A DNA stretch of 44,997 nt from Rhodoplanes serenus (GTDB lineage: Bacteria; Pseudomonadota; Alphaproteobacteria; Rhizobiales; Xanthobacteraceae), in assembly GCA_945861855.1 (NCBI GenBank), contig CAMAWG010000015.1, forward strand, positions 1-44,997. Direction: 5' to 3'. Below are positions 32,311 through 34,714 of this stretch, piece after piece. A program made the translations under genes and the position numbers. Within the stretch, counting starts at the first letter, position 1. Every line of letters begins with the position of its first letter. The notes beneath the pieces were generated by a model that did not search any database, was not told the origin of the DNA, and saw only the letters and a program-made list of their open reading frames with translations.

Positions 32311-32339
32311 TTTACGTGCTGGCGCACAGCGTGTCCCCG

Positions 32340-32487
32340 GTCATTCCGGGGCGTCCGCCGTAGCCCGAAGGGCGAAGGCGTGACGAACCCGGAATCCATA
32401 CGCCGCAGTCTTTCGTTGTCGGCACAGCGGCAGGCATCGGCACAGGGGTTATGGATTCCGGCACTTGCTTCGCTCGGCCGGAATGAC
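32340..32487. repeat. Palindromic intergenic repeat, family C, copy 2
   Basis: It has the same end blocks as 31508-31620 (GTCATTCCGGGGCG...CCCGGAATCCATA and GGCACAGGGGTTATGGATTC...CGGCCGGAATGAC). The central part is longer and includes a repeated GGCACAG.GGCAGGCATCGGCACAG. The interval 32213-32656 holds only this element, families B and D and no gene. Confidence 0.85.
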
Positions 32488-32512
32488 GGAGGGACACGCT
32501 CCGGCCTCTCCA

Positions 32513-32545
32513 CGTCATGGCCGGGCTTGACCCGGCCATCCACGC
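32513..32545. repeat. Half-element of repeat family B
   Basis: CGTCATGGCCGGGCTTGACC and CGGCCATCCACG match the left arm of the element at 26344-26430. The right arm is missing, so this is a solitary or decayed copy. Confidence 0.7.
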
Positions 32546-32567
32546 CTTCTCCGATCGCAGGGCAATG

Positions 32568-32656: not shown

Positions 32657-33001
32657 TCATTGACGCAATTGGTTCCAAGCCGCTTCGATTATTTTCATCG
32701 AAGCGTCGTCAGGATGGCAAGGCTTGCCGCAAGCTGTTTCAATTAGCTTTTCGTTCCCGCGCCAAAGGCCGTAACGATTGCGAATTTCTTGACCAAGACT
32801 GAGGTGCAGCGAAATGAGGTTGTCGCTACTTGTCATCCTGATCTCTGACTTCTGAAGCGCCGATAGCCGGGGCAACAGATCATCAATGGTTTCGTTCACC
32901 GTCGTAGGCCAATTTTCGGGGCCGAGGACATTGTCGGCCCCAAAAACAATTCCAGTCCATAATTGGATTGCGGCGATCAATGCAAAGCTGTTTTGTTTCA
33001 T
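32657..33001 (-). CDS. Small secreted hypothetical protein (DUF6794-like)
   Basis: The 114-residue product (from ATG 33001) has a short basic N-terminus and a hydrophobic segment (MKQNSFALIAAIQLWTGIVF, then GA), consistent with a signal peptide. A small domain follows with WPTTVNETIDDLLPRLS, LISLHLSLGQEIRNRYGLW and CGKPCHPDDASMKIIEAAW. The domain resembles the DUF6794 family, which I recognise only by pattern; its function is unknown. Two Cys in CGKPC could be a disulfide. Base composition is clearly less GC-rich than the neighbouring genes, and codons ending in A/T are common, which suggests acquisition. It is divergent from the next small gene, with 17 bp between the start codons. Confidence 0.7.
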   Translation of the reverse strand: MKQNSFALIAAIQLWTGIVFGADNVLGPENWPTTVNETIDDLLPRLSALQKSEIRMTSSDNLISLHLSLGQEIRNRYGLWRGNEKLIETACGKPCHPDDASMKIIEAAWNQLRQ

Positions 33002-33018
33002 TGGTCCAGGATTCAAAT

Positions 33019-33276
33019 ATGAGCGTTCGCCGCAAGTTGTTTGGAATTTGGTGCGGCTTTACGGCGCTCTGGTGGCTATTTGGAATCTTTGGCGGCGACG
33101 GTAGCCTGATCCTATTGAAGTTTCAGAACGGGGGCTGGCGGGCGGCGTATGTGCATCTCGTGCTGACGGTGCTGATTGCCGCCAGCATCCCGGCAGCGGT
33201 GTTACTGATAGGTCGCGCAATTCTTAGGAGTGCCGATCGATTCTGCAAAAAGCCCCCGCTCGGACCGTCCCCTTGA
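33019..33276 (+). CDS. Small hypothetical membrane protein, 85 aa
   Basis: The protein starts at ATG 33019 (AGGA upstream) and has two hydrophobic segments, FGIWCGFTALWWLFGIFGG and VHLVLTVLIAASIPAAVLLI, separated by a short polar loop. The C-terminus is basic (RSADRFCKKPP). No family is recognised. It forms a divergent pair with the DUF6794-like gene, and both are AT-richer than the rest of the window. Its stop codon lies inside the -35 box (TTGACA) of the promoter that drives the structured leader downstream. It probably spans the inner membrane as a hairpin. Confidence 0.6.
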   Translation: MSVRRKLFGIWCGFTALWWLFGIFGGDGSLILLKFQNGGWRAAYVHLVLTVLIAASIPAAVLLIGRAILRSADRFCKKPPLGPSP

Positions 33277-33300
33277 CAGGACCATATTCCTTGGGATAAT
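33273..33300 (+). promoter_or_regulatory. Near-consensus sigma-70 promoter
   Basis: A perfect TTGACA (33273-33278) is followed after 16 bp by GATAAT (33295-33300, five of six bases of TATAAT). It is the best sigma-70-type match I noticed in the window. It points rightward into a gene-free 450-bp region rich in hairpins. The predicted transcript start would be near 33306-33308. Confidence 0.65.
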
Positions 33301-33306
33301 ATTCCT

Positions 33307-33756
33307 CACCCTGCTTGTTGAGGGGCGTCAACCGGTGGCGCCTGTTGATCGGAGCAGGGGCGGCGTCGGCGGGTCTGGCTGAGCCGGCCAGGCTCCCGGG
33401 AGGCCTCGGGGCCCCGCCCTACGGGCACTATGACCCGTGTGCAGGGAGCCTGCTGGACCACCGGAGCATCTCGCTCCGGGCGGCAAGCGCGGCCCGAGGT
33501 CAGTGAGACGGCCTTCGCGCCGCCTCACGAAAACGCCGCGGTGGAGCGCCGAGAGGCGAGGGTCTCCGCGCAGGAGACCCGAACGCGCCTCGCAAGCGTG
33601 TTCCAGGCCGTGCGTATCGGCCCGGGGGCGAAAGCCCGGGCGCCTGTCGGCGCTCCGCCCCCCTCGCAGTTTGCGAGGGCGATGCAGAACGCCGGGCGCA
33701 AACGCGCCGCGGCGGCGATCGGCCGTGCGCCGCATCCCACACAATCAGGAGATACG
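33307..33756 (+). ncRNA. Candidate structured leader RNA or sRNA, about 450 nt
   Basis: The interval between the promoter and the ribosome-binding site of the next gene contains a run of strong stems. They are CCCTGCT/AGCAGGG (33309-33315 with 33353-33359), CTGGC/GCCAG (33375/33387), ACGGG/CCCGT (33421/33434), CCGGAGC/GCTCCGG (33461-33467 with 33473-33479) and GTGAG/CTCAC (33503/33524). Next come GGGTCTCC/GGAGACCC (33560-33567 with 33573-33580) nested in GAGGCG/CGCCTC, then GCCCGGG/CCCGGGC (33620/33635), and CCCTCGCA/TGCGAGGG (33661-33668 with 33672-33679) with a 3-nt loop. I could not match it to RNase P, SRP, 6S or tmRNA features. Several frames are open through it, so an unrecognised coding sequence cannot be fully excluded. 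Confidence 0.5.
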
Positions 33757-34176
33757 ATGTTCCGAACCAAGGTCACCTTCACCGAACGGCAAACGCCCGA
33801 GCAGCGCAGGGCGCACGCCGCCCATTGGCGCCGGCACGACGACACGCGCCGCGCCCAATGCAACATGCTGGGGTTCTGGCGGGTGTGCGCGAGGCCCGTG
33901 TGCCGGCGCAACCGCACCTGCTCGCACGACATGCACGCCTGCTTCGAGCGCCATTGGGCGCTCATTCCGGAAGACGACAAGGAATGGATCCGCGGCGCGA
34001 TCCTGGCCGCGCGCGACGGCGCGACCGGGGACGCGGCCGCCCGCGCGGCGGATTCACGGCGCGACCGTTATCTCAGGTCTTTGGATGCGAGGAGCACGCC
34101 CGTGATGCTGGCTTCATCATCTGCCGCGACAGACGAGTCGGCCTCCGCCCCGGATGTGCGGATCAGGCGGCTGTAA
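33757..34176 (+). CDS. Small basic Cys-rich hypothetical protein
   Basis: ATG 33757 has a strong site, AGGAGATACG, directly before it, which decides this start over the longer open frame from 33430. The 139-residue protein is basic and contains a Cys/His cluster, QCNMLGFWRVCARPVC followed by RRNRTCSHDMHACFERHW. The spacing C-x10-C-x4-C-x5-C-x6-C suggests a metal-binding or disulfide-rich mini-domain. The N-terminus (FRTKVTFTERQTPEQRRAHA) is highly charged, and the C-terminal ~45 residues look disordered. No transmembrane segment is present. I do not recognise a named family. Its position behind a long structured leader and a near-consensus promoter suggests strong or regulated expression. Confidence 0.72.
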   Translation: MFRTKVTFTERQTPEQRRAHAAHWRRHDDTRRAQCNMLGFWRVCARPVCRRNRTCSHDMHACFERHWALIPEDDKEWIRGAILAARDGATGDAAARAADSRRDRYLRSLDARSTPVMLASSSAATDESASAPDVRIRRL

Positions 34177-34199: not shown

Positions 34200-34490
34200 T
34201 CAGCGTGGGTCAACGCGATTGCGTGCGCCATGAACAATGGCAACGATGACGATCTCTTGGAGATTGTCATCGACCTTGTAGACAATGATATAGGGCCATT
34301 CGAGCAGTTCCCGCGTGCCCTCGACGAGGCCGCGACGCCCCATTTCCGTCAGAGCAGGGGTGGCGAGTTGCATCGCCTTGCTCTCGATCCGATCGATCAT
34401 CGCGAGCGCGGCACGAGGATTGTCCCGGAATATCCACTCAAAGATACGATCGAGATCGTCGCGCGCGGCGGGCTCGAACGTAACCTTCAT
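34200..34490 (-). CDS. RelE/ParE-family toxin
   Basis: The 96-residue protein has the ParE/RelE fold pattern: KVTFEPAARDDLDRIFEWI at the N-terminus, a helix with RAALAMIDRIESKAMQLA, then the C-terminal strands WPYIIVYKVDDN and IVIVAIVHGARNR. It would be either an mRNA-cleaving or a gyrase-targeting toxin; the sequence favours ParE-like. Its ATG at 34490 overlaps the antitoxin stop by four bases, giving antitoxin-toxin order. It ends 24 bp from the convergent stop of the Cys-rich protein gene. The key residues look intact, so it is probably functional. Confidence 0.88.
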   Translation of the reverse strand: MKVTFEPAARDDLDRIFEWIFRDNPRAALAMIDRIESKAMQLATPALTEMGRRGLVEGTRELLEWPYIIVYKVDDNLQEIVIVAIVHGARNRVDPR

Positions 34491-34714
34491 GCAACGCGGG
34501 ATCGCAGGCGCTTGAATACTTCTTCGGCCGGGATGCGATTCGGGCTTGGCTCCGCCAACCGCCGTCGCACCTCGGCCGCCTGTTCATCGGTGAGGCGCAA
34601 TTCGCTCCCGTACTGCTCTTCCAGCATTTCCACGACATGAACCACATCGGCCTGCCGCTCCGGCGGCCACGTCAGCACACGGTCCAGAACCTCTTTCACC
34701 TGGTCCTTGGTCAT
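34487..34714 (-). CDS. Antitoxin of the ParE/RelE module
   Basis: The 75-residue acidic/basic helical protein has an N-terminal part, KDQVKEVLDRVLTWPPERQA, which may bind DNA or dimerise. The C-terminus is typical of addiction-module antitoxins: LTDEQAAEVRRRLAEP followed by IPAEEVFKRLRSRV. It overlaps the toxin start (ATGA) and would be co-translated with it. The start ATG 34714 lies 24 bp after the stop of the amidohydrolase gene, so read-through from that gene is possible in addition to its own autoregulated promoter. Confidence 0.85.
   Translation of the reverse strand: MTKDQVKEVLDRVLTWPPERQADVVHVVEMLEEQYGSELRLTDEQAAEVRRRLAEPSPNRIPAEEVFKRLRSRVA

Follow-up and report, generated by a model that had tools for sequence, protein, structure and literature searches.

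The window, meaning the whole analysed stretch of 44,997 nucleotides from Rhodoplanes serenus, holds at 33273-33735 one copy of a folded RNA element of about 430 nt, the unit of which runs from a -35 box to about 33735 and is followed by the gene for a small four-cysteine (Cys4) protein. The features of the locus are as follows.

33273-33278, + strand: -35 box TTGACA, read from the sequence; copies in two further genomes (G127 and G038) place the 5' border of the unit here too
33295-33300, + strand: -10 box GATAAT, read from the sequence; spacer of 16 bp to TTGACA
33308-33735, + strand: structured RNA, the predicted transcript body (z = -6.78; 29 of 87 pairs covary), with a predicted start at about 33307
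33308-33316 with 33352-33359, + strand: helix P1; covaries, and in a second count both sides change in 8 of 8 pairs
33324-33342, + strand: hairpin P2a, a candidate kissing loop; palindromic loop ACCGGT at 33331-33336
33326-33330 with 33346-33351, + strand: alternative helix P2b, mutually exclusive with P2a; pairs canonical in 82 of 99 to 101 of 106 copies
33360-33365 with 33534-33539, + strand: long-range helix P3, closing the central domain; covariation
33366-33400, + strand: hairpin P4; covariation in both alignments
33402-33417 with 33489-33501, + strand: long-range helix P5; covariation
33421-33438, + strand: hairpin P6; five covarying pairs
33441-33453, + strand: hairpin P7; 33443-33451 is the strongest pair of the genome-wide test, canonical in 105 of 106 copies with four pair types
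33540-33558 with 33641-33659, + strand: long helix P8; highly conserved, with covariation
33560-33580, + strand: hairpin P9; covariation
33695-33708, + strand: 3' hairpin P10; one covarying pair
33747-33752, + strand: Shine-Dalgarno-like AGGAGA, read from the sequence; an ATG follows at 33757
33757-34176, + strand: gene for the 139-residue Cys4 protein (C44, C49, C55, C62), an open reading frame with the motif W-x2-C-x4-C-x5-C-x6-C

Several further features surround these. Upstream and in the opposite direction, a gene at 32657-33016 (- strand) encodes domain DUF6794 (E 6e-14), and just 3' of the Cys4 gene, at 34200-34714 (- strand), lie two small adjacent genes that by eye are RelE/ParE-type toxin-antitoxin-like. 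A separate palindrome at about 32453-32490 (GATTCCGG...CGGCCGGAATGACGG) resembles by eye the Bradyrhizobium repeat Br-REP2 as it appears in the part of PMC5082802 that sets out these repeats, and 32334-32556 has many short, highly similar matches in the same genome and in genomes of the same genus.

The promoter (TTGACA, a 16-bp spacer and GATAAT) and the ribosome site before the ATG at 33757 that an initial annotation had placed here are both present. That annotation had also listed two 8-bp stems: the first, at 33560-33580, is the covarying helix P9, and the second, at 33661-33679, is present in the window in columns too gappy across the copies to be scored. It could not place the RNA in a known class by eye, and an Rfam search of the whole window returned no match at gathering scores; with Rfam 15 on 33000-33900 the sole hit was the entry P13, on the opposite strand and below threshold (E = 0.58). 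The 428 nt at 33308-33735 have a folding energy of -273.7 kcal/mol, and none of 100 dinucleotide shuffles was equally stable. The window copy makes 81 of the 87 consensus pairs and has a gap at three further pairs, and the expected start at about 33307, placed from the -10 box, adjoins the first base of helix P1. A promoter-like box pair scoring at least 9 of 12 is found in 68 of 107 homologues compared with 3.9% of shuffles, the remaining 39 scoring below 9, and the element usually appears to carry its own sigma-70-like promoter at its 5' border. In many copies a dyad like ATTCCTAnnAGGAtTAT, possibly a shared operator, is visible by eye between the two boxes (33279-33300 in the window).

No convincing gene had been seen in the region, and this holds in the homologues, where any given one of the six frames stays open for 390 nt in no more than 8-14 of 107 and no three-base periodicity is clear. 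A cryptic or decayed coding sequence might still be argued for, given that a frame from 33430 (open reading frame 33430-34176) stays open in the window into the Cys4 gene and that 31 of 107 homologues have one or more open sense frames, compared with 19% of simple shuffles. This small excess is not taken for coding, however, and the protein-coding reading, which we regard as very improbable indeed, was rejected for want of a conserved frame or a clear periodicity. A conserved reading frame and stems that are not preserved had both been named beforehand as outcomes that would speak against the annotation; they were looked for and neither was found.

Conserved helices and the palindromic P2 loop

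Covariation was assessed in a MAFFT alignment of 107 non-redundant copies, reached from 253 profile hits by way of 176 near-full-length and 134 unique copies to those below 88% identity, with an aligned copy length of 384-434 nt (5th to 95th percentile) and with a null in which each column's substitutions were replayed along the tree. When all pairs were tested, eight reached E <= 0.05, and every one of these is canonical in over 70% of copies, with one lying off register by a single position. When the test was restricted to the 87 consensus pairs, 29 were significant compared with 0-4 when the partners were slid, and these fall in ten helices: P1, P2a, P3, P4, P5, P6, P7, P8, P9 and P10. A second alignment of 79 copies over the 5' half, fitted to a covariance model, has 34 of 39 pairs altered on both sides, a value that none of 500 shuffles reached. 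Two further alignments, A2 and A3, contain 25 and 33 of 35 copies respectively, truncated or insert-bearing copies having been left out by hand. The element encodes a conserved multi-helix RNA, and a structured RNA behind the promoter is strongly supported.

Strand 33326-33330 has two partners, 33337-33340 in P2a or 33346-33351 in P2b, both canonical in most copies. The covarying pair of P2a is 33328-33338 and those of P2b are 33329-33347 and 33330-33346; the P2b pairs 33327-33350 and 33328-33348 were not outstanding in the covariation test and 33326-33351 was left out of the scoring. A switch between P2a and P2b in folding is possible on these pairing patterns.

The apical-loop hexamer of P2 is palindromic in 78 of 91 copies and imperfect in 13, the other 16 of the 107 copies having been left out for gaps in the loop; the commonest hexamers are ACCGGT (22), TCCGGA (22), TCTAGA (17), TCATGA (13) and TCGCGA (4). 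Its two central bases, 33333-33334, are neighbours unable to pair with each other inside one molecule and yet are complementary in 85 of 91 copies compared with 37% expected, with the centres CG, TA, AT and GC and about 25 changes on the tree. They form the top adjacent pair in the alignment (S 138.9, pooled p 8e-8); the second best, 33320-33321 (S 103), sits among gappy columns and probably reflects a shift in the alignment. Covariation of neighbouring bases within a palindromic loop is the criterion for symmetric kissing loops that Kretsch and colleagues apply to OLE L9.3 and GOLLD L21a in the part of their study concerned with these loops (PMC12286853). Judged by the loop pattern, the element RNA probably pairs with itself through P2.

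Given that the loop is palindromic as DNA too, it could instead be the site of a dimeric DNA-binding protein or modification enzyme and take no part in an RNA-RNA contact. This is improbable for two reasons: first, a sequence-specific protein would preserve the letters themselves, beyond mere complementarity, whereas all four centres are found, with several types per genome. Second, the eight copies read in the window's own genome carry TCATGA (five), ACCGGT (two) and TCCGGA (one), and such coexistence of several palindromes within one genome favours complementarity over a fixed DNA-binding site.

Copies, borders and spread of the unit

The initial annotation understates what is there, which is a multi-copy RNA family. 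In the window's own genome a 484-bp query finds four other places at 74-90% identity, the last match being of 31 nt, and a covariance model gives 12 matches, two of them weak (about 41 bits). Within the family, 56 of 149 genomes match this query, and covariance model R1, covering the 5' 157 nt, has matches in 89 of the 149 and in 34 of 47 genera. Seven genomes scored deeply gave 12 (own), 50 (G080), 18 (G127), 17 (G038), 18 (G071), 14 (G056) and 20 (G108) matches, four rows in G056 and one in G038 being second pieces of a split copy, which leaves 10 and 16 places, and several rows elsewhere being weak; the places per genome thus number about 10-50. A subtype in genomes such as G056 (L018, L078, L084, L096, L021 and L028) shows two R1 matches lying apart, as would follow if an insertion had separated P1/P2 from P4. 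The 50 matches in G080, a single contig of 8.2 Mb, look spread round the whole chromosome, and runs of strand might follow the replichores.

A broader model, R3, finds relatives in 24 of 297 genomes from the order, 22 of these outside the family, where single weak hits need caution and the E-values of the models, R1 included, are rough; a restriction of the element to one family was consequently rejected. Of 385 genomes drawn from the class, two matched, the window's own and one from another family. At eleven R3-found loci, an independent 3' model (E <= 0.05) lies downstream on the same strand in six (L266, L269, L270, L272, L273 and L275), the contig end cuts two (L274 and L277) and the 3' model is absent at three (L267, L271 and L276); at L071, in the same genome as L266, both halves are present and in order. 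Among named records the exact core pattern occurs in 57 stretches, from Rhodoplanes, Pseudolabrys, Pseudorhodoplanes, unnamed Xanthobacteraceae, Hyphomicrobiales and the like, and also in one genome each labelled Rhodopseudomonas, Bradyrhizobiaceae and Acidobacteria. Plasmid and phage records gave no BLAST match to the element, and the exact pattern was found in no stretch of the viral contigs. Many copies of the element are dispersed in the genomes of Rhodoplanes-like bacteria of soil and water.

The copies of G127 and G038 share a sharp border. In G127 the copy starts exactly at TTGACA, with differing sequence 5' of it, in 11 of 12 loci, the twelfth having no match in the motif search, and the consensus in G038 has the same TTGACA border. 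In G080, however, a TTGAC-type block is present in 6 of 20 copies (L115-L134) and the other 14 share a different conserved block before P1, indicating that the promoter is not fixed in all lineages; this replacing block reads approximately TTTGCATTY-CGCAAATCACG-GTAGACGCGA.

Four copies in G038 lie at different loci, and those at three other loci are 95-98% identical to the copy at 1782601. The site of this copy is empty in all four same-genus genomes in which both flanks are visible, out of seven relatives compared, the distance between the flanks being 248-276 nt compared with 778 nt. The locus at which an empty site was first sought had been set aside because the neighbouring stretch is missing in G092 too. 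Given the near-identical copies at separate loci and the empty site, the spread of the unit seems to take place at the level of DNA. Copy numbers within genomes have risen recently, and some of the similarity among copies may be due to gene conversion.

Two 3' endings, a and b, exist, and neighbouring genes were counted for 120 copies with enough flank, 77 of which have no ending type. Copies with ending a have an antisense gene downstream in 21 of 27 cases and a sense gene upstream in 19 of 24, so that these elements would mostly be stand-alone units between convergent genes. For ending b a sense gene follows in 10 of 11 cases, and under a stricter rule for open reading frames a sense gene lies close behind in 7 of 12; such elements, mostly upstream of unrelated genes, may lend those genes a promoter and a leader. 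Ending-b copies L011, L002, L066, L142 and L144 lie upstream of genes that by eye are housekeeping-like, and the downstream genes are ABC-F, adenosine-kinase-like, ribosomal L25-like, release factor 3-like and dihydroxyacid-dehydratase-like.

Sharp borders, a high copy number, copies that are almost identical and one empty site raise the possibility that the unit is a mobile repeat acting at the level of DNA, MITE-like or HUH-type, in which the hairpins serve ssDNA recognition in transposition and the promoter is incidental. The convergent placement of ending-a copies, which is the pattern of neutral repeats too, and the swapped promoter block in 14 of the 20 G080 copies are consistent with such a repeat. 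Nevertheless, we consider it unlikely: covariation in ten helices, some of them long-range, is more than hairpin ends require, promoter-like boxes accompany 68 of 107 copies, and inspection by eye of 18 border pairs revealed no obvious terminal inverted repeat or target duplication, the flanks of the empty sites being too diverged for duplications to be compared. The G080 copies, which mostly lack the TTGACA block, weigh slightly towards a DNA repeat and slightly against the promoter-bearing RNA unit favoured below, its bolder form included.

The Cys4 gene and its linkage to the RNA

The partner proteins are 87-167 residues long, and C44, C49, R51, C55 and C62 are invariant in 30 aligned proteins, as W41 is in an alignment of eight; start codons for the 30 were picked by rule, and the misframed L092, present in alignment A4, was left out of A5. 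The four cysteines may bind metal. An AlphaFold2 model of the Cys4 protein is all helical with a mean pLDDT of 88.3; compared by fold with solved and viral structures it gave nothing at E <= 0.001 and no recognisable RNA-binding fold. By sequence, nothing in the PDB matched at E <= 1, and no significant Pfam, NCBIfam or PHROG family was found, matches being confined to single members at E 0.01-1 and including no nuclease family. A scan of the 30 partner proteins revealed no transposase among Pfam matches up to E 0.1.

A Cys4 profile search was positive in at least 53 of the 149 family genomes, with one to four copies each among the matches listed. All 53 are RNA-positive and none of the 60 RNA-negative genomes is Cys4-positive among the matches listed, a co-occurrence whose p value is inflated and indicative only, given that the genomes are related. 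Conversely, 36 of the 89 RNA-positive genomes have no Cys4 gene among the matches listed, G080 and G101 with 20 or more RNA matches each being among them, and the Cys4 protein therefore seems not to be needed to keep the RNA. When the best-matching locus was taken from each of 30 of the 53 positive genomes, 29 of these loci had the RNA upstream of the Cys4 gene and on its strand, detected by R1 at 27 and by a further model, R2, at two more; the remaining locus has just 189 nt of contig upstream.

The initial annotation had proposed that the transcript is a structured leader, or a separate RNA, controlling the cysteine-rich gene. The structured RNA behind a promoter stands, on covariation, fold and promoter scores; the role as leader of that gene does not, except for a minority of copies. 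From the RNA side, a Cys4 gene lies behind 28 of the 105 non-redundant copies whose downstream sequence is long enough (profile E <= 0.01), 13 of these 28 having been fetched through the protein; a text-pattern count of 24 of 105 missed proteins, and the profile count was used. The linked copies do not form one 'master' clade, since they are scattered on the RNA tree with 24 label changes compared with 24.7 when shuffled.

A region acting solely as a cis-regulatory leader of the Cys4 gene would account for the RNA upstream at 29 of 30 Cys4 loci and for the chosen start codon falling, with starts set by rule, 250-400 nt past the end of the 5' model in 21 of 27 loci. This is too narrow, however, as the element is not consistently upstream of one gene type: a Cys4 protein is missing behind 77 of the 105 copies, seven genomes each hold about 10-50 places, and the gene that an ending-a copy faces is antisense in 21 of 27. 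Given that only 28 of 105 copies precede the Cys4 gene, the function cannot be solely its control in cis, and we hold a leader-only role to be quite improbable.

Related systems and proposed mechanism

HEARO, the omega RNA of IscB/IsrB elements, is structured, present in many copies and often alone, with a protein gene that sometimes follows. The present element is likewise multi-copy, often alone and sometimes has a protein gene behind it; unlike HEARO, it has no Rfam hit, and its partner is a small Cys4 protein that is not IscB-like and has no nuclease family match. REPs are short single palindromes of about 20-40 nt, and the partner in REP/RAYT systems is a Y1 HUH transposase. The element shares with these its dispersal, its many copies per genome and a rare protein partner, and differs in being about 430 nt long with ten helices and usually a promoter, and in a partner without a transposase match. 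Dispersed repeats with many copies per genome also recall the MRSC mobile or repeat motifs, as far as the relevant part of PMC11109978 describes them, and Br-REP1 and Br-REP2 of Bradyrhizobium, in the section of PMC5082802 that presents them, are likewise intergenic repeats in related bacteria but are short palindromes of other sequence.

Among larger RNAs, the element resembles the ornate OLE, ROOL and GOLLD RNAs, as portrayed in the relevant sections of PMC12286853, in being a large covarying multi-helix RNA (29 of 87 pairs here), and OLE and GOLLD in its palindromic loop with adjacent-base covariation (85 of 91 here). It is unlike them in lying in many dispersed copies, mostly with a promoter, and in its Cys4 gene, and a multimer is only predicted here; no Rfam cut-off was reached in the window, and beyond P13 there was no match to E 5. 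Multi-copy Rhizobiales sRNA families such as SmelA075 likewise occur as several structured copies per genome, in bacteria of this order, and have, in the portion of PMC3927594 devoted to them, three or four hairpin loops, the element being set apart by this description. Weinberg's 'Rhizobiales-1' motif has no Rfam number in the table of PMC2864571 that lists it and so lies outside the Rfam-based comparison. A word search for the related genera in the searchable part of PMC8632094 found none, an open-access literature search, not exhaustive, found no description of the present element, and it is apparently undescribed. In summary, it appears to resemble the ornate multimeric RNAs in its loop logic and REP and HEARO in its dispersal, but the comparisons of sequence or partner that were carried out set it apart from each of them.

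The explanation that we favour, with moderate confidence, is that of a dispersed, mostly promoter-bearing unit that spreads as DNA and whose RNA self-pairs and is a target of the Cys4 protein encoded behind linked copies. Computation establishes the structure of the RNA, how it is dispersed and its linkage to the protein gene, and from these the following course is suggested. The unit would spread as DNA; RNA polymerase would start at about 33307 and the RNA would then fold; and two RNA molecules would join by their palindromic P2 loops, perhaps once a switch between P2a and P2b has occurred. The Cys4 protein, which on the linkage of the two genes probably binds the RNA, would be supplied by linked copies, and once bound it would control its own message and act on RNA from other copies.

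More tentatively, and as a reading that we find possible though doubtful, the whole may be a new class of selfish or domesticated 'RNA element', in which a mobile DNA unit gives rise, from its own promoter, to a large, self-dimerising and possibly switching RNA, and a cognate Cys4 zinc or iron-sulphur protein, whose gene follows a few copies in many genomes, binds and controls the RNA from dozens of scattered copies, some of which would now be leaders of housekeeping genes.

Large structured bacterial RNAs are rare, and the one described here recurs in several families of one order with strong covariation, a self-pairing signature and a linked protein of no known family. Both natural RNA dimerisation outside viruses and the spread, by a mobile element, of an RNA gene together with its promoter can be tested on it.
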